Source: Buttiauxella gaviniae ATCC 51604 (GTDB lineage Bacteria; Pseudomonadota; Gammaproteobacteria; Enterobacterales; Enterobacteriaceae). Taken from it: 64,000 bases of DNA. A program made the position numbers and the translations under genes. Under the pieces are notes generated by a model. The model did not search any database, had not been told where the DNA came from, and worked only from the letters and a program-made list of their open reading frames with translations. This document shows positions 11,358 through 19,897 of this stretch, one piece after another. Each line of letters begins with the position of its first letter. The stretch's first letter is position 1. The DNA is taken from NCBI RefSeq assembly GCF_001654835.1, contig NZ_LXEP01000020.1:62001-126000 (forward strand). The letters run 5' to 3'.

Positions 11358-12749
11358 ATGCCGCAGCCAATAATCACACTTGCTGCCATTGAGCAGCCAG
11401 CAATTTATCTGAACACCCCAAGCGTGGTGCTAAACAACCAGACTATTGAGGAGCGTTTGCGCAAAGTTTTGCAGGGAATGGCGCAGCAGAATCTGGATTC
11501 GCTCGTCGTTTATGCCGATAAAGAGCATGGCGGGAATTTTGAGTATTTGACTGGTTTCATCCCACGCTTTGAAGAAGGCTTGCTGGTTCTACATAAAAGC
11601 GGTGAGGCGGTGCTGGTTCTTGGGAATGAAAATCTCAAACTCGCACAGCACTCCAGAATTCCAGCAAGTGTGATACATGCGCCGTGGTTTTCACTGCCAA
11701 ACCAGCCGATGGACACCGCACTTTCGCTAAGCGAAGTGTTGCAACAAGCCGGGCTGCATGGGCAAGAGCGTGTTGGTATTGCGGGCTGGAAGCTTTTCAC
11801 TGGCATCAACGACAACAATAAGTCTCTGTTTGATATCCCCACCTTTATTTTCCTGGCGCTTCAAAGCGCGCTGACTCCAGCGTATGAACTACTCAACGCC
11901 ACAGATCTGTTTATTTCTCCGCGCCAGGGAGCAAGGACAACCAATAATGCCAATGAAATTGCGCACTATGAATACGGTGCAAACCTGGCATCAAGCGCGG
12001 CGCTTACCGCACTGAATGCAATTGAATTAGGGAAAACTGAAAAGTCGATTGCAGCCCTGCTTGCCGCCGATGGTCAAGCCAATAACGTCGTAACCATTGC
12101 TGCTACGGGCGATCGTTTTGAAAATGCCAACCTGTACCCATCGGATAAGCAGATCCAAAAAGGCGATAAGTTTTCATTAACTGTCAGTTATAAGGGCGGT
12201 TTAACCAGCCGTGCGGCATACGTTGTCAGCCAGGCCGATGAACTTCATGATGAGGTCAGTGATTATCTCGATGTGGTCGCCATCCCGTATTATCGCGCGG
12301 TCGTCGCCTGGCTTGAGAATATGCGCGTCGGGGTGAAGGGCCACGAAGTCTACGACTTGATTGAGCGTGTTTTGCCTAAAGCCGAATACCACTGGCACCT
12401 CAACCCTGGCCATTTGGTTGCCGATGAAGAGTGGCTGTGCTCGCCGGTTTACCCTGCATCGGATATCGCTTTATCCAGCGGAATGTTGCTGCAAATCGAC
12501 ATCATCCCATCACGTAAAGGTTACGCGGGAGCGAGCATCGAAGACACCATTGCCCTTGCCGATGAACATTTGCGCCAGCAAATAGCCACCCTCTACCCGG
12601 AATTATGGCAACGCATCAGCGCTCGCAGAGATTACATCCGTGACGTACTGAATATTCACTTACACGAAGATGTGCTGCCGCTGTCAAACACCGTGGGATA
12701 TTTGCGGCCCTATTTGCTGAATAAAGATTTGGCGCTAATTTGCCAATAA
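11358..12749 (+). CDS. M24-family (Xaa-Pro peptidase-like) protein with degenerate metal site
   Basis: This 463-residue protein has a two-domain creatinase/prolidase layout: an N-terminal domain (about 30-190) and a C-terminal pita-bread domain (about 195-460). In active M24 metallopeptidases five ligands bind two metals. Here the usual first Asp is Thr275 (GDKFSLTVSY) and the second is Arg285 (TSRAAY in place of SDxTR). His352 (NPGH) and Glu395 (SIEDT) remain, and the remaining Glu appears as Asp (QIDIIP). Aminopeptidase activity is therefore unlikely. A metal-free hydrolase like creatinase, or a binding protein, is more plausible. A GGAG-type SD precedes the ATG. It lies between yhhT and a fimbrial operon, where E. 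coli has acpT and nik genes. Confidence 0.8.
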   Translation: MPQPIITLAAIEQPAIYLNTPSVVLNNQTIEERLRKVLQGMAQQNLDSLVVYADKEHGGNFEYLTGFIPRFEEGLLVLHKSGEAVLVLGNENLKLAQHSRIPASVIHAPWFSLPNQPMDTALSLSEVLQQAGLHGQERVGIAGWKLFTGINDNNKSLFDIPTFIFLALQSALTPAYELLNATDLFISPRQGARTTNNANEIAHYEYGANLASSAALTALNAIELGKTEKSIAALLAADGQANNVVTIAATGDRFENANLYPSDKQIQKGDKFSLTVSYKGGLTSRAAYVVSQADELHDEVSDYLDVVAIPYYRAVVAWLENMRVGVKGHEVYDLIERVLPKAEYHWHLNPGHLVADEEWLCSPVYPASDIALSSGMLLQIDIIPSRKGYAGASIEDTIALADEHLRQQIATLYPELWQRISARRDYIRDVLNIHLHEDVLPLSNTVGYLRPYLLNKDLALICQ

Positions 12750-12759
12750 TGTTTATCTT

Positions 12760-12787
12760 CCTGCGCCGGATATCTTCCGCGCGCAGG
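12760..12787. terminator. Stem-loop between convergent M24 and fimbrial operons
   Basis: CCTGCGC (12760-12766) pairs with GCGCAGG (12781-12787), and the 44-base gap between two convergent stop codons contains little else. The adjoining bases are only weakly T-rich on either strand. It is a reasonable shared transcription end but not a strong intrinsic terminator. Confidence 0.5.
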
Positions 12788-12793
12788 AGTTAT

Positions 12794-13144
12794 CTAGTCT
12801 TGTTTACTCGAGCATTGAACCTGGTGAACAAGTTCAGGTGTCCAGTGATACTCAACTACATGCCCTTCCGGGCTTCTGACAGCAATATGTAACTGGGCAA
12901 ATTCACCGGATTGCAGGGTAAAGAAAAGTTGCGTCAGGGGGTATGGGCAACCAGCCTGATAGGAAACAAACATTTTCTGCCGGGTTCGCTGAGATCCTCG
13001 CTGTGTATTAATAACCAGTTCTATGGTCATTTGCCCGGAAATATCTCGCTCAAACACAGCATATGCCGTGAGATATTGATGACCAAATTGATTATTGTGT
13101 GATACCCATATCTGGTCTCTGGTCTTAACAAGAGTTGCATGCAT
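12794..13144 (-). CDS. Hypothetical protein at the end of the fimbrial operon
   Basis: I do not recognise this protein of about 116 residues. It has no signal peptide or membrane segment. It contains one central Cys (YQAGCPYPL) and another near the end (QVQCSSKQD), and its composition suggests an alternating beta-rich fold. The reading frame can start at GTG 13156, but the ATG at 13144 has the better-placed purine stretch (GAGACGAAAT). It begins 16 bases after the adhesin stop, so it is probably the last gene of the fimbrial transcript. A cytoplasmic partner or regulator of the fimbria is one possibility, but nothing in the sequence proves it. Confidence 0.65.
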   Translation of the reverse strand: MHATLVKTRDQIWVSHNNQFGHQYLTAYAVFERDISGQMTIELVINTQRGSQRTRQKMFVSYQAGCPYPLTQLFFTLQSGEFAQLHIAVRSPEGHVVEYHWTPELVHQVQCSSKQD

Positions 13145-13160
13145 ATTTCGTCTCACTTAT

Positions 13161-14114
13161 TTATTGGTAATCAATATTGAAATACAGGCTGGCGTGGATT
13201 TTCCCCGGTTGTACCTGTTCATCTATCTGGTAATACTGCGAATAAAATCGAACGGAATATTTGTCGGATTTGGAGCTTCTCAATTCCACTTTTTTCATTT
13301 CATGAAAATTAAGCGGCTGATGATCGTCACCGAGCACTTGCACTCCAATCCCCTTAGCAGAAGAACGTCCTGCCACTGAATTGCTTAACACTCCGTCAGA
13401 ACCCGAGTTTTTGCCGAATTGCCCATTCCATTTCAAGAAAACAGCAGAGGGCGTTTTATCATCGGTTGCACAAGATAAATGAATATCAAAAGGGGTTTTA
13501 CCTGCCACCGAACCAGGGGATTTGAACCGGTCCAGAACGACGCCTGGCAGCGTAATATTGCGTGTTTTATCACCATAAATTTTGCATGAGCGATTCAGAA
13601 TGGTGACAAAGCCAGCCGGAATATAAATATCTATCAGCGGTGAACTCTGCAGTAGGTTATTTATTTCAAAACGCATACCTTCTGAGCCTCCTCTGGCCGA
13701 TATTCCATCATCAGCCTTAATCAACTCCATATTGATTCTGGCCCCAGATAATTCAGACATGCTTGCAGAAAATTTTGAAGGCCAGGCTATTTCGCGCCCA
13801 CTTGATGTGACCAAAGTCATTCTCATACCAACGCCTTTTGCATTGGTTTGAAAAACTCCGGGAGTTTTCATCTTCGACGCTCCACCTGGAACATCAGCAC
13901 TAAATTTAATAAGCTCCTCACACTCAGGAGACGGTGGGAGCTGCACAGCAAATGAACTCTTTTTTAGCACTGAGCCTAAAGCATGATTATTTCTGTTGGT
14001 TACCGTTTCCGGCGATAAAGTTATTTTTTGTGATTTAACAATACATGTAGCCTGGGAATTAAAACTTACCGCCAGAAGTATCAGTAGTGGTAACCCTGCA
14101 CGAACTAACGACAT
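13161..14114 (-). CDS. Fimbrial tip adhesin / minor subunit
   Basis: This 317-residue exported protein has a signal peptide of about 22 residues (ending FNSQA, then TCIVKSQ). Its two-part layout is typical of chaperone-usher tip adhesins. The N-terminal domain (about 23-180) has paired Cys, and the C-terminal pilin-like domain (about 185-317) starts with the Cys of NRSCKIYG, has a second Cys in LSCATDD, and ends in an aromatic-rich strand (ASLYFNIDYQ). It overlaps the usher end by 10 bases, indicating coupling. The receptor cannot be inferred. The coding DNA is AT-richer than that of the core genes. Confidence 0.82.
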   Translation of the reverse strand: MSLVRAGLPLLILLAVSFNSQATCIVKSQKITLSPETVTNRNNHALGSVLKKSSFAVQLPPSPECEELIKFSADVPGGASKMKTPGVFQTNAKGVGMRMTLVTSSGREIAWPSKFSASMSELSGARINMELIKADDGISARGGSEGMRFEINNLLQSSPLIDIYIPAGFVTILNRSCKIYGDKTRNITLPGVVLDRFKSPGSVAGKTPFDIHLSCATDDKTPSAVFLKWNGQFGKNSGSDGVLSNSVAGRSSAKGIGVQVLGDDHQPLNFHEMKKVELRSSKSDKYSVRFYSQYYQIDEQVQPGKIHASLYFNIDYQ

Positions 14115-16558
14115 ATCGCCTCCTGGCTTTTAATATCAATTGTGCAGACTCCATTTTCTGACGAAACACTCACAGTAGGTGATTGGGTTTGGTCAATATA
14201 GAGAAGCCCACCCTGACCGACATAACCAATATGGTTATTTTCCTGGTCTTTGATAACCGCGCCAAAAGGTAAAGTCTGTTGGTTGCGCAGTTTGGGATGA
14301 ATAATGGTCTGTTTATTTATCTTTGTGTCAAAAGCAACGTGAACAACACTGCCTTCAAAGGGCACAACTTTTCTTTGTGTTTGCTGGAAAGTGACGGTGT
14401 CATCCGCGCCTTTTGGGTTAATCACCACATCGTTAACACGCCAGGCGCGCAACCACGGCATAACTGCATAACCATTTGAGTCAAAACGGGTTCCTGGCGC
14501 TCCATCTAAACGCGCACCTTTTGCATCTGCGGCATAAACCAGTGCTACCGTATCGCTTCTTTCTGGGGAGAAGGTCACCCCTTTACGGTGAGTAATCATT
14601 GAACCACTCATCCCCGCACTAGCCTGATGCCAGTCATTACCCTGGCTTAATGTCGTGCTCAGAGTGCTGTAAGGTGAACGGTAAGTTCCATTCATTCCCC
14701 AGTCCATATCTCCGCCGCGGCCATAGGCTGCATTAAGGCCTAGCATCATATTATTTTCTTCATCAACTGAGGTTGAGAAGCCCATACGCGTATTGCTGGC
14801 TTTACCATTACTGCTGTAGCTGTCTGAATATATTTGTGTATACCCGGAGTCTGAACGCGGGAGTGAATAACTAAAGTTCAGCGCAACCTGATCATCTTTC
14901 GTTACGCCACCATATTCATCTTCATTCCATAAACGCTGTACTGAAAGCGTCCAGTTTAAATTGCCCCAGTTATTGCTATAGCCGACAGAATATTGTCGAT
15001 AACTATCCTGTTGTTCCCAGTATTTATTGATCGAACCAGAGATATTTAATGATCCCCATCCATCCTGAAAAGGCTGGCTCAGGCTTAATGACCAGGACTG
15101 TTTTTCGCGTAATACTGCGTATTCCGAACCACTGTCTTGCTGTTCAAAAGCATCACGCTGCCCAAAGAAGTTTTTCGCATTGAATTTTCCCTCCAGCCAG
15201 AATGAGGTTTGCGACAATGGTAGGGTTCGGTTGTAGGTCAGGCGGTATCCTTGCCCATGGTTTTCCTGATTATCGAAATTAAAGCGTGACTGCGTTATGT
15301 CGAGAGCGAAAGCGCCAAAAAAGGTATTCAACCCAGCGCCCACTAACGCCGACTGGTAATGATCAAATCCTGTAGCACCAGAATAGAGCGACACATAATT
15401 GTTTAGGCCGTACTGCCACGTCGCCTGTGCAGCAAAGGGAGATTCATTGCTATCTTGCTCATCGACTTTCCCAAGCGAAACGTTATAGCGGCTCACGCCC
15501 GGTTTTAATAATTGTGGTACTGATGAATAAGGAACAGAGAAACGCCGAATACGCCCGTCAGATTCCTGAATAGTGACCAGCAGATCTCCGCCCGTATTTG
15601 CCGGTAAAATAGACTCGATTGAGAAAGGTCCTGCCGGTACGGATGTTTGATGAATAACTCTTCCATCCTGTGTCACGGTGACACGTGCATTCGTTTCCGC
15701 CATCCCTCTGATATTGGGCGCCCAACTCAAGGTGTTATCCGGATGCATTTGATCCTGTGATTCGAGCGATGCGCCCAAAATGCTTAAACCATCAAACAGC
15801 TGGCTATCAGTATAAAATTGTCCGGCACTGAGCATGGACTTCCAGCCAATCAATGGCTTTTTTAAGGTAGTCCGGTTGCTGGAATAATGCTTTCCACTGT
15901 CGTTGTTCCAGTCGAGGCTACCAAAATGTTCAAGCAGCCAACCCGATGCAGAAGCTCTTACATCAAGCCCGAGCCAGGCACTATCCGAACTGGAGCGACT
16001 ATCGCCACGTTGCTGCATCGAGTAGTAATCAGCCATATAACCGAGATTAATTGCCGGAATACCCTTCTGCCACTGCTCAGGCTGCACATAGTTGCTATCG
16101 GTATTATCCAGATATGCTTGTGGAACACTCATCCGTAATTCCAACAATCCGGCATTAAAGGTTTCTACCGCATTACCGTAAACATCCCATTTATTAATCG
16201 TGCCACAGTAATTTTTTTCCTCCGCCAGAGATTTATTCATCCGTAGAGTGTTAACTCCGACAGACTCGAGAAAGTAAGCGGAATGACAGGTTGCTAAGTC
16301 ACCATCTTTGGTTTTATTAAAAATAACATCGTGGCGACCACGCCAATGTTCATTGACATAAACATCAACACTATAACGCCCTGGTGGCAATGATTTTATA
16401 TCGAAAGCACTAAGATCGTTGCTCTTAGCATTTCCCATCAAAATAGCATTATTAAACGTATAACGAATATCATCCTCTGCATTAGCACTGATTGGCAGAA
16501 ATGAAATATTTGCCAATACTAAAAATGGAGTGATAACAGTTTTCTTATAGAGATCCAT
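14105..16558 (-). CDS. Fimbrial outer-membrane usher (FimD/PapC family)
   Basis: This 817-residue usher exports and assembles fimbrial subunits. After a signal peptide (about residues 1-27, ending SANA) come the N-terminal chaperone-binding domain (YTFNNAILMG...LPPGRYSVDVYVN), the 24-strand barrel with the plug domain (ILPANTGGDLLVTIQESDGRIRR) and two C-terminal domains. The C-terminal Cys pair (VCTIDIKSQEAICR) is present. The length is close to the family norm of 800-880. It sits 15 bases after the chaperone and overlaps the adhesin. No frameshift is visible, so the system looks functional. Confidence 0.94.
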   Translation of the reverse strand: MDLYKKTVITPFLVLANISFLPISANAEDDIRYTFNNAILMGNAKSNDLSAFDIKSLPPGRYSVDVYVNEHWRGRHDVIFNKTKDGDLATCHSAYFLESVGVNTLRMNKSLAEEKNYCGTINKWDVYGNAVETFNAGLLELRMSVPQAYLDNTDSNYVQPEQWQKGIPAINLGYMADYYSMQQRGDSRSSSDSAWLGLDVRASASGWLLEHFGSLDWNNDSGKHYSSNRTTLKKPLIGWKSMLSAGQFYTDSQLFDGLSILGASLESQDQMHPDNTLSWAPNIRGMAETNARVTVTQDGRVIHQTSVPAGPFSIESILPANTGGDLLVTIQESDGRIRRFSVPYSSVPQLLKPGVSRYNVSLGKVDEQDSNESPFAAQATWQYGLNNYVSLYSGATGFDHYQSALVGAGLNTFFGAFALDITQSRFNFDNQENHGQGYRLTYNRTLPLSQTSFWLEGKFNAKNFFGQRDAFEQQDSGSEYAVLREKQSWSLSLSQPFQDGWGSLNISGSINKYWEQQDSYRQYSVGYSNNWGNLNWTLSVQRLWNEDEYGGVTKDDQVALNFSYSLPRSDSGYTQIYSDSYSSNGKASNTRMGFSTSVDEENNMMLGLNAAYGRGGDMDWGMNGTYRSPYSTLSTTLSQGNDWHQASAGMSGSMITHRKGVTFSPERSDTVALVYAADAKGARLDGAPGTRFDSNGYAVMPWLRAWRVNDVVINPKGADDTVTFQQTQRKVVPFEGSVVHVAFDTKINKQTIIHPKLRNQQTLPFGAVIKDQENNHIGYVGQGGLLYIDQTQSPTVSVSSENGVCTIDIKSQEAICR

Positions 16559-16573
16559 CTTTTTATATCCTTA

Positions 16574-17281
16574 CTATCCATGAGTAATGACTTTTGTTTC
16601 AACCACTCCACCGTAGTCGTTAATACTTTGGACAACTAAATTTTGCCCGTGAGAAACATTCTCTTTTACTTTAAATTCCATTTGGCTCTTGGGTGCCACC
16701 ATCTCACTTTCTTCTAAAAGACCGGAACCTAAAGCAGTTTTAATATCGACAATCGTGATAAAGAATGGCGAAGGGTTAAGAACCGTAATTTTATTTCTTG
16801 CAGAGCGTAATTCTAATTTATTTTCCGCATCTGCTCGATTACCTAACCCTTCAGGTCGCCATATAAATTTAAATCGGGAACGGATCGCCATATTTAGCAT
16901 GCCAGCATCTTTTTTATACTCATTTTTATCGATAGCAGGGACATCCAGAATATTTAGCCACCACAGTGACTCTCTGTCATTTATGGAGATCGTTTGCAAT
17001 TCCTGTTTTTTAATTCTTATCGATTGACCATTTTTCGCATCAACGCGAGCAATAGGTGGAGATATTATAAAGGGTGTAGAGATTTTTTCTGGTGGCACAT
17101 CAGGATCGCCTTCATCTAACCAGATTTGAGCCAGAGATGGCGCACTGCCTGTGTTGGTCATTTGGATAGTGATTTCTGGAGCATTAGCCGGGTAGATAAA
17201 ACGCGTTCCATTAACGATGATATTGTCGGCATAGGACAATGGCGTTAATAGCATGGAATATAGCAGAATTAAAAATCTCAT
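16574..17281 (-). CDS. Periplasmic fimbrial chaperone (PapD/FimC family)
   Basis: This protein of about 235 residues has a signal peptide (MRFLILLYSMLLTPLSYA) and two immunoglobulin-like domains. Family landmarks include NGTRFIYPANAPEITIQMTNTG, the conserved LWWLNILDVPA segment and IKFIWRP-type text (RFKFIWRPEGL). The chaperone donates a strand to subunits and delivers them to the usher. The frame allows an upstream ATG at 17293, but GGAGGT lies inside that extension at the correct distance from the ATG at 17281, so the later start is preferred. It follows the major subunit gene after a hairpin. Confidence 0.93.
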   Translation of the reverse strand: MRFLILLYSMLLTPLSYADNIIVNGTRFIYPANAPEITIQMTNTGSAPSLAQIWLDEGDPDVPPEKISTPFIISPPIARVDAKNGQSIRIKKQELQTISINDRESLWWLNILDVPAIDKNEYKKDAGMLNMAIRSRFKFIWRPEGLGNRADAENKLELRSARNKITVLNPSPFFITIVDIKTALGSGLLEESEMVAPKSQMEFKVKENVSHGQNLVVQSINDYGGVVETKVITHG

Positions 17282-17300
17282 AGTGACCTCCATGTGAGTA

Positions 17301-17328
17301 ACACCATAGCCATTTATGGCTATGGTGT
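17301..17328 (-). terminator. Intra-operon hairpin between major subunit and chaperone genes
   Basis: A perfect 13-bp inverted repeat, ACACCATAGCCAT-tt-ATGGCTATGGTGT, sits right after the major subunit stop. In the direction of the operon it has no T-tract, so partial termination or 3'-end stabilisation of the subunit mRNA is likely. Such hairpins commonly raise the major subunit relative to assembly proteins. On the opposite strand it is followed by TTTTTATATT and could terminate antisense transcription. Confidence 0.65.
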
Positions 17329-17335
17329 TTTTATA

Positions 17336-17911
17336 TTATTTATATGTTATACGATAATGCATCTGCGCCACGACAGGTCCGGCGGTACTAGATTTTTCAG
17401 ATGTATTATCAAGTTTTATATAACCTACATGAAATTTATAGAAGAGAGCATCATTCTCAGAATAGCCCATTTGACCAACAGGCTTATGATAAGTTATATG
17501 CTTAAGGTCTAGGGGTTCTTTCTGGTCATTCATTAGTAAGAATGCAATATCTTTAGGGCCAGATGCTGTATTTTTTAGATAACCGTCTTTCGTCGTATTC
17601 TCACTATTACGATCTAAAGCGATATTCGGTCCAATATTATTAAACGTTTTACATCCATGAATCCTGATCGTAAATGGTATCGCATGATTTTTTTGTTCGC
17701 CTGTTTTGACATCAGAATGTTTTACAGCAGGGAGCTTAACAATTTTGTCTTTATCAGAGTTAGAAATTTGACAAGAGCTATCAAATATAAAACCTGTAAA
17801 ATGTACAGAGCTAAACCAATCTCCTGATATTGACCCATTCTGATGTTCTGCCATTGCAACAGGAGCAAAACTAGCACACGTCAATAAAGCAATAATTGAT
17901 ACCTTATTCAT
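17336..17911 (-). CDS. Major fimbrial subunit (type 1 pilin-like)
   Basis: This 191-residue exported protein has a signal peptide of about 21 residues (ending APVAMA). The mature part contains the pilin disulfide pair (SSCQIS and IHGCKTF) and ends with the alternating strand PVVAQMHYRITYK that serves in donor-strand exchange. It is the first gene of the operon subunit-chaperone-usher-adhesin. The upstream 393 bases separate it from a divergent CsgD-like regulator. The sequence is not close to FimA or PapA. The type is a chaperone-usher pilin of undetermined clade. Confidence 0.88.
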   Translation of the reverse strand: MNKVSIIALLTCASFAPVAMAEHQNGSISGDWFSSVHFTGFIFDSSCQISNSDKDKIVKLPAVKHSDVKTGEQKNHAIPFTIRIHGCKTFNNIGPNIALDRNSENTTKDGYLKNTASGPKDIAFLLMNDQKEPLDLKHITYHKPVGQMGYSENDALFYKFHVGYIKLDNTSEKSSTAGPVVAQMHYRITYK

Positions 17912-18304
17912 AATATTTCCTTTTGTTAGGAATACAGTAAATCTGTATCTATCAAGAGGTATTTACCTCAGAATTATTATAAATAAGCAAACATATAAGT
18001 AACTACGGAGATTAACGTATTTGCATAATGCTTAGTGCTTGCCACTAATACATTAATATTAAAATACATTATTTAATAGAATGTATTTTAATTTATGAAA
18101 GATCACTGAACAAATTAAACCATTAAATATCAACGAGCTTACATTAGAGACAAATAACTTCTGCTTAATAATTCGGTAAAACCGATTTATTATTATGCAC
18201 AATAAGCTAAATCTCATTAGGTCTAACATCTTATCGTTAGCCCAATTAATGGATGATAGTAAATTTACTGTCCTGGAGAAAATAACTCTATAGAGGGAAG
18301 ACCC
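17912..18304. other. AT-rich divergent regulatory region of the fimbrial cluster
   Basis: These 393 bases lie between the divergent subunit and CsgD-like genes and code for nothing convincing. They are strongly AT-rich and hold a 12-bp perfect inverted repeat (18059-18091). I see no pair of separated inverted repeats flanking a promoter, and no recombinase gene is nearby, so phase variation by inversion is not supported. AT-richness of this degree is a typical target for H-NS silencing, which is an inference. Confidence 0.6.
18059..18091. repeat. 12-bp perfect inverted repeat in the fimbrial control region
   Basis: TTAAAATACATT (18059-18070) and AATGTATTTTAA (18080-18091) are exact inverse complements separated by nine bases. 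The site lies about 150 bases upstream of the major subunit start and 215 bases upstream of the CsgD-like regulator. It could be a dimer binding site for one of the local regulators or a hairpin. It is not followed by a T-tract. Confidence 0.7.
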
Positions 18305-18940
18305 ATGCTTAACTACACAGCAGAGCAAAAATTGTTCTTAGTTACCCGACCCTCAGTGCAAAATCATCTTCTTCTGGAGCGCTTGAATCAGGAAATTAAG
18401 ATCCCGGTTGTGGTCCTGAATGTAAAGAAACCAATGATGTTTTATGCTTCTGAGAAGTCTATCTTTATTTACGATACAGATGCAGCCAGCAGTAAATCCA
18501 ACAAAGTCTGGCCAAAGTTGCTTGCGGAAAGCCAATCCAGCATGCGGATATGCCTGCTTAACTGCTCGAGGGCATTGTCTGTTTATGAAAAATCGATTTG
18601 GCATCGCTTCGATACCGTATTACCCAATGACACAACACCTGGCAGTCTGGTTAAAGCCATAAAAAATATGATGCAAAATAAGCATGAGGATAATGCCAAC
18701 GCTTGCCTTCAAACCTCACCGGAACAAACATATGCTGATAAAAACTCAGGCAATTTGACCATACGGGAATACGAAATTCTGCACGAGTTATGTAAAGGTG
18801 AGTCTAATGCTCGCATCGCTCAATCCTTCTTTATCAGTGAAAACACAGTACGAACTCATCTTTATAATATTTTTAAGAAAATATCGGTAAATAATCGAAT
18901 ACAGGCTGTAAATTGGGTTAACCATCAACTTATTAATTAA
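18305..18940 (+). CDS. LuxR-type transcriptional regulator, CsgD-like
   Basis: This 211-residue protein has a C-terminal LuxR/FixJ helix-turn-helix (about residues 149-207). The segment LTIREYEILHELCKGESNARIAQSFFISENTVRTHLYNIFKKISVNNR is strikingly like the corresponding part of CsgD, the curli and cellulose activator. The N-terminal half is a divergent receiver-like domain without the Asp/Lys phosphorylation set, as in CsgD. It is divergent from the fimbrial operon and so is probably its regulator. It is too different in the N-terminus to be CsgD itself, and no csg genes are present. Confidence 0.85.
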   Translation: MLNYTAEQKLFLVTRPSVQNHLLLERLNQEIKIPVVVLNVKKPMMFYASEKSIFIYDTDAASSKSNKVWPKLLAESQSSMRICLLNCSRALSVYEKSIWHRFDTVLPNDTTPGSLVKAIKNMMQNKHEDNANACLQTSPEQTYADKNSGNLTIREYEILHELCKGESNARIAQSFFISENTVRTHLYNIFKKISVNNRIQAVNWVNHQLIN

Positions 18941-19045
18941 TTACATCAATTGACCCACAGTGCAATAATAACGGGGTTGATTGACTAAATAAATCCAATA
19001 TGTATATCTAATAAGGGACTTTCGCGCTCAAGGATGTATTGCCAC

Positions 19046-19894
19046 ATGCTTAAAAAGAATATCGTACAGGAAGTATTAAATTACATCGAAAATAATATCG
19101 ATGTGAATATTAACATTGATGATATATCCAGATTTACGGGTTACAGCCGCCGGCACATCCAGACTATTTTTAAACATCATGTAAGAATACCTATCGGTCT
19201 CTACATTCGTAAGCGCAGGGTGACTCGGGCATCTATATTCCTGCGTCTAACCAATATGAATGTAATTGATATATCTGCAAAATTTGGCTACGACTCTCAG
19301 CAGTCCTTTTGCCGGGAATTTAAAAAAGCCGCAGGGTTGACCCCACTTCAGTACCGCAGAAGTTGCTGTTGGGACTTCTCGCCATTATTGGAAGAATTCA
19401 ACTTTAGCCGCATTGACGTAGGCAGTTTTCAGATATGCACCTTGCCAGAAGGATATATCTCTGGCCAGATGTCTCATCAAGAAATCACTATCCCGATCAA
19501 CGAGAACATTTTAGATGTACGCTGGAATAGCATCATCAATCATTTAAATAACCAGAAGCAAAACATTTGGTATATATCAGAATATAACGCACATAAAAAA
19601 CACTCAATGCGGATAAAAATAAGTTCGGTTATTGGCGTACATAATAAAGAGGTAAACAAAAAGCCGGGTGATCACCCCTACCCTTCGGGGATATATGCCA
19701 GATTTTCATTCAGGTGCAATAAAGAAGAATACTCTAAGTATTCAAAACATATTTATCTCAACATTTTCCCTAAACACAGGTTAAAACGTAGACCAGCCCC
19801 TGACATTGAGGTTTTTACTTATAACGGCTACGCCAGGCCTGATAATGCTCTGGATTGTGAATACTACATCCCTGTAGAAACAGTAGCCGAATAA
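19046..19894 (+). CDS. AraC-family regulator, Rob-like with GyrI-like C-terminal domain
   Basis: This protein of about 282 residues has an N-terminal MarA/SoxS/Rob-type DNA-binding domain: two HTHs, with NIDDISRFTGYSRRHIQTIFK and VIDISAKFGYDSQQSFCREFKKAAGLTPLQYRR. A C-terminal domain of about 160 residues (SRIDVGSFQICTLPEGY...) resembles the GyrI-like ligand domain of Rob. A start at 19034 is possible, but AGGA at 19032-19035 fits the ATG at 19046. It follows the CsgD-like gene in the same direction and ends 3 bases from the convergent MFS gene, so it may control the fimbriae, the exporter or both. Confidence 0.82.
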   Translation: MLKKNIVQEVLNYIENNIDVNINIDDISRFTGYSRRHIQTIFKHHVRIPIGLYIRKRRVTRASIFLRLTNMNVIDISAKFGYDSQQSFCREFKKAAGLTPLQYRRSCCWDFSPLLEEFNFSRIDVGSFQICTLPEGYISGQMSHQEITIPINENILDVRWNSIINHLNNQKQNIWYISEYNAHKKHSMRIKISSVIGVHNKEVNKKPGDHPYPSGIYARFSFRCNKEEYSKYSKHIYLNIFPKHRLKRRPAPDIEVFTYNGYARPDNALDCEYYIPVETVAE

Positions 19895-19897
19895 CAA

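Follow-up and report, generated by a model that had tools for sequence, protein, structure and literature searches.

A chromosomal fimbrial cassette of Buttiauxella gaviniae with CsgD-like and Rob-like regulators and a CsgC-like protein

Introduction

Do the two regulator genes beside an AT-rich fimbrial operon on the chromosome of Buttiauxella gaviniae ATCC 51604 belong with this operon, and from which fibre system do its parts come? The operon lies in a stretch of 64,000 nucleotides (contig NZ_LXEP01000020.1, positions 62,001 to 126,000), which is called the window in this study. An earlier note, made from the sequence alone, had described a block of six genes: a complete subunit-chaperone-usher-adhesin operon and, divergent to it, genes for a CsgD-like LuxR protein and a MarA/Rob-type protein with a ligand domain. 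As shown in Table 1, all genes named for the operon were present and open, with their domains recognised by Pfam, and both regulators were identified as described. The six named genes stood, but the block also contained a seventh gene within the same span, a relative of csgC, which had not been named.

What each part is, and that the parts are inherited as one block, is likely to be as given here, namely a chromosomal cassette for a chaperone-usher fimbria that is sister to type 3 (Mrk) fimbriae. New relative to the earlier note are the CsgC-derived gene, the precise place of insertion, the relationship to type 3 fimbriae, a regulatory half unlike theirs, and the replacement of the pilin.

Results

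Composition and insertion site of the cassette

Seven genes, all open, were found in the cassette, encoding the pilin, chaperone, usher, MrkD-type adhesin, CsgC-like protein, CsgD-like LuxR protein and Rob-like AraC protein. The GC content was 41.1% in the cassette and 50.7% in the remainder of the window, and windows of the same length outside the cassette (n = 427, overlapping) had a minimum of 46.96%. At the 1-kb scale the minimum in the block was 33%, and two spots elsewhere in the window were at 42-43%. The GC content at third codon positions was 25-43% in the seven genes and 49-65% in six flanking genes. The AT-richness relative to the flanks was borne out by both overall base composition and third-position GC, and a uniform composition was ruled out.

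The cassette is flanked by yhhS, yhhT and an M24 peptidase gene on the left and by a major facilitator superfamily (MFS) gene, yhiN and pitA on the right. Different genes occupy the yhhT-yhiN interval in E. coli K-12. The block was located between M24 and MFS in four genomes: the window genome, B. noackiae, Buttiauxella sp. B2 and B. massiliensis. M24 and MFS were directly adjacent in seven of the eight Buttiauxella genomes examined that lack the cassette here (G250, G019, G317, G344, G347, G346 and G349), while in the eighth (G343) M24 was followed by a 308-aa open reading frame (ORF) and then by an autotransporter-type gene of 3340 aa; this comparison does not extend to the sites of G345 and G348. 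Genome G346, whose own M24-MFS site is empty, carries the block at another locus, with ABC-transporter genes on one side and dioxygenase-type and LysR genes followed by tssF on the other. Altogether, the CsgC-like gene and a matching pilin were present in five of 12 Buttiauxella genomes.

Both features of a genomic island, a deviant composition and an empty site in relatives, were found. The view of a fimbrial island with its own regulators was upheld by this distribution, since empty sites and recurrence in G023, Citrobacter braakii and G346 indicate co-inheritance. There was no tRNA gene in the window and no integrase among the seven island proteins, and an Rfam search gave no match. Between the window and B. 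noackiae, the number of synonymous substitutions per site (dS) was 0.31-0.64 for the block genes other than the pilin and 0.32-0.44 for yhhT, M24 and MFS. Because the two ranges resemble each other, the block at the M24-MFS site seems to be older than the split of these species.

Other surface proteins were seen in the M24/MFS neighbourhood of other Buttiauxella genomes, namely a different chaperone-usher operon beside MFS (G317), the 3340-aa autotransporter-type protein of G343 and a large haemagglutinin-repeat protein with a VENN domain (G347); a similar giant ORF in G346 is known by its size only. This neighbourhood looks like a hotspot for adhesins.

Table 1. Features of the fimbrial cassette, with positions in the window.
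Feature	Position	Strand	Evidence
Whole cassette	12750..19897	.	7148 bp; M24 peptidase gene end 12749, MFS gene end 19898
CsgC-like protein, 116 aa, without export signal or CxC	12794..13144	-	Curli CsgC profile E 1.8e-11; hhalign 97.3%; dN/dS
Tip adhesin, MrkD-type receptor-binding and pilin domain	13161..14114	-	Pfam MrkDrd 8e-8, Fimbrial 1.7e-14
Outer-membrane usher, sister clade of MrkC-type ushers	14105..16558	-	Pfam Usher 9.3e-140; tree; MrkC 40%
Periplasmic PapD-type chaperone	16574..17281	-	Pfam PapD_N 5.2e-34; MrkB 46%; probable start 17281 after GGAGG
Hairpin between pilin and chaperone genes	17300..17329	-	-21.1 kcal/mol, z -5.78, 0/200 shuffles
Major pilin, replaced allele	17336..17911	-	Pfam Fimbrial 3.2e-12; dS 1.07 to B. 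massiliensis
Shared upstream region	17912..18304	.	393 bp, 28% GC
CsgD-like LuxR-family regulator	18305..18940	+	NCBIfam CsgD 158.5 bits vs equivalog cut-off 250; tree
Rob-like AraC-family regulator with GyrI-like domain	19034..19894	+	NCBIfam RobA 157.3 bits vs equivalog cut-off 380; Pfam GyrI-like 6.6e-9; PDB 1d5y Rob E 1.4e-22

Relationship of the fimbria to type 3 fimbriae

The pilin, chaperone, usher, adhesin and CsgC-like genes are co-directional, with intergenic gaps of at most 54 bp. A PapD-type chaperone, an usher and pilin-domain subunits occur together, as in chaperone-usher fimbriae. The usher was 98%, 96% and 86% identical to those of B. massiliensis, B. noackiae and Buttiauxella sp. 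B2, respectively. The island chaperone, usher, adhesin and pilin showed 46%, 40%, 26% and 28% identity to MrkB, MrkC, MrkD and MrkA, respectively.

In the usher tree, the window clade comprised eight rows (the four Buttiauxella, G346, C. braakii and G023, then Shimwellia; support 100) and was sister to a 12-row clade (support 92), the joint 20-row group having a support of 100. The tree was built by a quick method with SH-aLRT support only, and MrkC is represented in it by rows 84-89% identical to MrkC rather than by a row of its own. Relatives of MrkA, MrkB, MrkC, MrkD and MrkF were found in all three loci from the 12-row clade that were compared with the Mrk proteins, and one of them (L096) also had EAL and LuxR genes of mrkJ and mrkI size downstream of mrkF. 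As the tree places the usher sister to the MrkC-type ushers, the fimbria is related to type 3 fimbriae but lies outside their clade.

The island shares with type 3 fimbriae the pilin-chaperone-usher-adhesin order, the MrkD-type receptor-binding domain and the sister-clade usher. However, it has no MrkF; the slot behind the adhesin is taken by the CsgC-like gene, and no MrkF match was found there. It also lacks MrkH, MrkI and MrkJ and has the CsgD-like and Rob-like genes instead, and none of its seven proteins contains a PilZ or EAL domain. In Klebsiella, mrkHIJ and control by cyclic di-GMP (c-di-GMP) are described in passages of PMC3161979.

The presence of the cassette on plasmids was considered and rejected: usher matches occurred in 505 of 72,556 plasmid records, all below 60% identity, and the ten best listed were mrk loci (mrkC, 40%). 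No near match was found in E. coli by megablast.

CsgD-like regulator and the shared upstream region

The CsgD-like protein and the genome's own CsgD were 66% identical in the LuxR-type helix-turn-helix (HTH) part (42/64), whereas the N-terminal part was only 18% identical (26/144). The HTH stretch reads SENTVRTHLYNIFKKISV in the CsgD-like protein and SENTVKTHLYNLFKKISV in the genome's own CsgD. Unlike CsgD, the island protein scores under the NCBIfam cut-off and its gene does not lie in a csg operon. The best-scoring solved relative was VpsT, matched via the HTH alone. From the HTH identity, we infer that the targets of the CsgD-like protein may overlap with those of CsgD.

The CsgD-like proteins of the four Buttiauxella loci, G346, C. 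braakii and G023 formed one clade (100/100), sister to curli CsgD (91/83), and the gene was divergent to the pilin gene in all seven loci of this clade. The CsgD-family genes beside Mrk-related operons in G325 (L062) and Shimwellia pseudoproteus (L073) fell outside it. Because these proteins branch elsewhere, the tree suggests that such operons acquired CsgD-family genes on more than one occasion; the long branch of G325 calls for caution here.

The region between the pilin and CsgD-like genes contains the palindrome GAGGTATTTACCTC at positions 17956-17969, located 44 bp ahead of the start codon of the pilin gene. The pattern GAGGT-N4-ACCTC with up to one mismatch occurred nowhere else in the window, and it was exact in three of the four Buttiauxella loci, with one mismatch in the fourth. 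This palindrome is a candidate operator.

Orphan CsgD-family genes were also seen outside curli operons in other genera (L048-L056 and L063). At L053, the gene was located between a PilT-like ATPase gene and ruvX. A pilus system beside the PilT-like ATPase gene was considered and rejected, since the other nine neighbours at L053 were housekeeping, nuclease or transport genes; the neighbours at the remaining loci were judged by gene size only. In the open-licence literature, no paper combining a CsgD-like protein with an usher was found, one paper, on TosR, mentions CsgD, LuxR and a chaperone-usher fimbrial operon together, and the words CsgD, LuxR and Rob are absent from the text of a review on chaperone-usher regulation (PMC9820224).

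Rob-like regulator and its linkage to the fimbrial genes

The Rob-like protein, which probably starts at 19034 or 19049, has an AraC HTH and a C-terminal GyrI-like domain, as in Rob of E. coli, but its NCBIfam score lies well below the RobA cut-off (Table 1). The search covered 343 genomes of the family and, for the CsgC-like protein, also 394 genomes of the order, both being samples from larger groups. Among the 24 closest usher loci (>590 bits) in the family genomes, five had an adjacent CsgD-like gene (G000, G165, G023, one of G109, and G325), three a full-length Rob-like gene (G000, G165 and G023) and two a CsgC-like gene (G000 and G165); G016 had a 151-aa Rob-like ORF with 34% identity.

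Only three Rob-like relatives of at least 43% identity were found in the family genomes, all beside this operon. The relatives in G023, C. braakii and G346, which are 43-45% identical, all adjoin the fimbrial operon. For relatives with at most 36% identity, 13 of 14 loci gave no match to the usher within the 17-18 kb covered, and the remaining one (G341) had an usher match of only 24% identity. Since the fimbriae and both regulators recur together in Buttiauxella G346, C. braakii and G023, the linkage between regulators and fimbriae is more than mere proximity.

A Rob-like regulator beside a chaperone-usher operon has a published case in Caf1R, according to passages of PMC6440114. The caf1 operon makes another fibre, the likeness is by description and not by sequence comparison, and a CsgD-like partner is unmentioned in those passages of PMC6440114. 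In the open-licence literature, Rob-like proteins occurred together with chaperone-usher fimbriae only in the Caf1R paper, and among the matches listed there was no title on Buttiauxella fimbrial genes.

CsgC-like protein

A profile of 11 curli CsgC proteins matched the CsgC-like protein with 41.2 bits, while the best of 2000 shuffles reached 12.5 bits, and the profile-profile comparison with curli CsgC by hhalign agreed with this match (Table 1). The NCBIfam CsgC match (E 1.2e-6, 28.5 bits vs cut-off 75) and the Pfam-type score (18.9 vs cut-off 25) were below both curated cut-offs. A profile of four close CsgC-like copies had no match in the PDB sequences, where the curli profile matches CsgC and CsgH.

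The protein shares 103 aligned columns with the curli chaperone CsgC but differs in having no export signal, no CxC motif and no adjacent csgA. In the alignment, its N-terminus covers the signal region of curli CsgC, but other residues take the place of the hydrophobic stretch (MHATLVKTRDQIWVSH vs MHTLVLLVALSNQLAFDT in the CsgC of this genome), and I-S-G stands at the CxC position. The signal stretch and CxC were present in none of the five island copies and in all 12 curli CsgC proteins compared, the copy of G346 being only 48% identical. In a hydropathy scan, the best eight residues scored -0.26 to 0.41 in the island copies and 2.24 to 3.34 in the 12 curli proteins. An alternative start (GTG at 13156) is immediately preceded by a stop codon, so no longer in-frame form with a signal is encoded. 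The ratio of nonsynonymous to synonymous substitutions (dN/dS) was 0.06-0.14 in five of six species pairs and 0.28 in the sixth, a nearly identical pair with very few changes, indicating that the gene is under purifying selection.

The search for CsgC-like proteins in the family genomes gave nine matches, two in islands (G000 and G165) and seven in curli csgC genes, each beside csgA and csgB. In the order genomes there were seven matches: the two islands, curli csgC of G024 and G359, two in unrelated genes (G676 and G632), and one in G023 (C1:2960817), about 1.9 kb from a CsgD match of that genome. Among the open-licence matches listed, no CsgC relative in a fimbrial operon was apparent from titles or abstract openings.

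Replacement of the major pilin and a hairpin behind it

Compared with B. massiliensis, the chaperone, usher, adhesin and CsgC-like proteins were 97-99% identical, whereas the pilin was 45% identical. The pilin dS given in Table 1 stands against 0.01-0.12 for the chaperone, usher, adhesin, CsgC-like and CsgD-like genes; Rob-like and M24 had values of 0.33 and 0.21. DNA identity was 0.53-0.67 across 17301-17900 and 0.99 and 0.95 in the adjoining bins. As the pilins of B. massiliensis and B. noackiae are 83% identical with an ordinary dS (0.42), the change most simply occurred on the side of the window. The donor was not found, the closest pilin among 12 Buttiauxella genomes being that of G348 (56%). 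The locus is a clean example of major-pilin replacement in an otherwise nearly identical setting. Identity to B. massiliensis also dipped at 12301-12500 (0.81, in M24) and 19301-19700 (0.87-0.89, in the Rob-like gene), which suggests further recombination patches.

The hairpin between the pilin and chaperone genes has a stem of 13 pairs, and all 52 pair cells across four species were standard. Three of the 13 pairs were changed on both sides among the four sequences, which was equalled by 11 of 500 shuffles. Elements of this kind are known 3' of major pilin genes. The hairpin is probably an mRNA stabiliser or processing element; such a role is likelier than termination because the coding strand has no T-run after the stem.

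Discussion

We propose that the CsgD-like protein would bind the shared upstream region, with positions 17956-17969 as the candidate operator, and activate the operon; a role as activator is somewhat more likely than not. The Rob-like protein would supply a further input through its GyrI-like domain, and the match to this domain makes small-molecule sensing plausible. Together, the two would fill the place of the c-di-GMP-responsive MrkHIJ in Klebsiella. Assembly of the fimbria would follow the usual chaperone-usher pathway and place the MrkD-type adhesin at its tip. Having lost its export signal, the CsgC-like protein would stay in the cytoplasm and might act there as a holdase that keeps precursors of fibre subunits, which are prone to aggregate, until they are exported by Sec, a role we put forward only tentatively.

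Several observations weigh against the inheritance of one block or against parts of this mechanism. G346 groups with C. braakii and G023 in the usher tree (96) but with Buttiauxella in the CsgD-like tree (93/88, not starred); because the two trees disagree, the parts of the cassette may differ in their histories. In G346, G023 and C. braakii the Rob-like gene is found at the opposite operon end; it shifts position relative to the operon but remains with it. The CsgC-like gene is absent from the C. braakii and G023 loci, so the fimbria has no general need of it. Its structure prediction was all-beta with low confidence (mean pLDDT, the predicted local distance difference test score, of 60), and with this model the best Foldseek match had an E of 0.13 and VIA-align gave Z scores of at most 6.3 to unrelated proteins, with no CsgC chain among the best 50 of either, which excludes nothing; the model therefore does not confirm a CsgC fold. 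At up to two mismatches, neither G346, C. braakii and G023 nor Shimwellia showed the GAGGT palindrome. The CsgD-box consensus was absent from the island upstream region at up to two mismatches, in a scan of low power because the window holds 229 matches at this threshold. Finally, dN/dS was below 1 for all seven genes in every computable pair, being highest for the pilin (0.22-0.51), but the pairs with Buttiauxella sp. B2 mostly had a dS above 1, which makes dN/dS there rough.

A different explanation is that the island cross-controls curli, with the CsgD-like protein competing for CsgD sites and the CsgC-like protein retaining curlin in the cytoplasm; the fimbria would thereby replace curli on the cell. 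The genome retains csgDEFG and csgBAC, and the similarity of the two HTH parts is in line with shared sites. According to passages of PMC4838910, CsgC and CsgH also inhibit the unrelated amyloid FapC, and the CxC mutant C37S stays potent. The CxC motif is the definition of CsgC used there. However, R40, K57 and K60, described as critical for CsgC potency in the same passages, read Q, R and M in the window protein, so that one of the three basic residues is kept, and the K57 position is L in G346; the island upstream region also had no CsgD-box match. This explanation is possible but doubtful. A further reading is that the fimbria took over and altered two curli parts: the DNA-reading domain of CsgD would have gained a different N-terminal half, and the CsgC chaperone would have been transferred from the periplasm to the cytoplasm, making the island a switch between fibre systems. 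We regard this as rather improbable. If true, the island would read CsgD's sites under a different signal and restrain curlin inside the cell, and a CsgC-family protein active in the cytoplasm would put this fold to a new use.

It is unlikely that the regulators are passengers, the Rob-like protein serving the neighbouring MFS exporter and the CsgD-like protein a remote target. The MFS gene is convergent with the Rob-like gene at a distance of 3 bp, and Rob controls efflux in E. coli. But the MFS gene is also present where the island is absent, and the Rob-like gene stands beside fimbriae in G023, C. braakii and G346, where no relative of that MFS protein matched in the stretch read; the constant divergent placement of the CsgD-like gene in its clade also speaks against a passenger. 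That the CsgC-like gene is a decaying csgC remnant carried along is very unlikely: signal and CxC are lost and two related loci lack the gene, but it is open in all five copies, even the most divergent one, and dN/dS is low.

With the cassette read as an inherited block for a relative of type 3 fimbriae, its gene set is an unusual combination, with parts of two different fibre systems. Fimbrial operons of sister groups can have entirely different regulatory halves, a c-di-GMP module in one and a CsgD-like and a Rob-like regulator in the other, while the assembly genes remain recognisable. A signal-less copy in a chaperone-usher operon, under selection, makes the reach of CsgC-type anti-amyloid chaperones directly testable.

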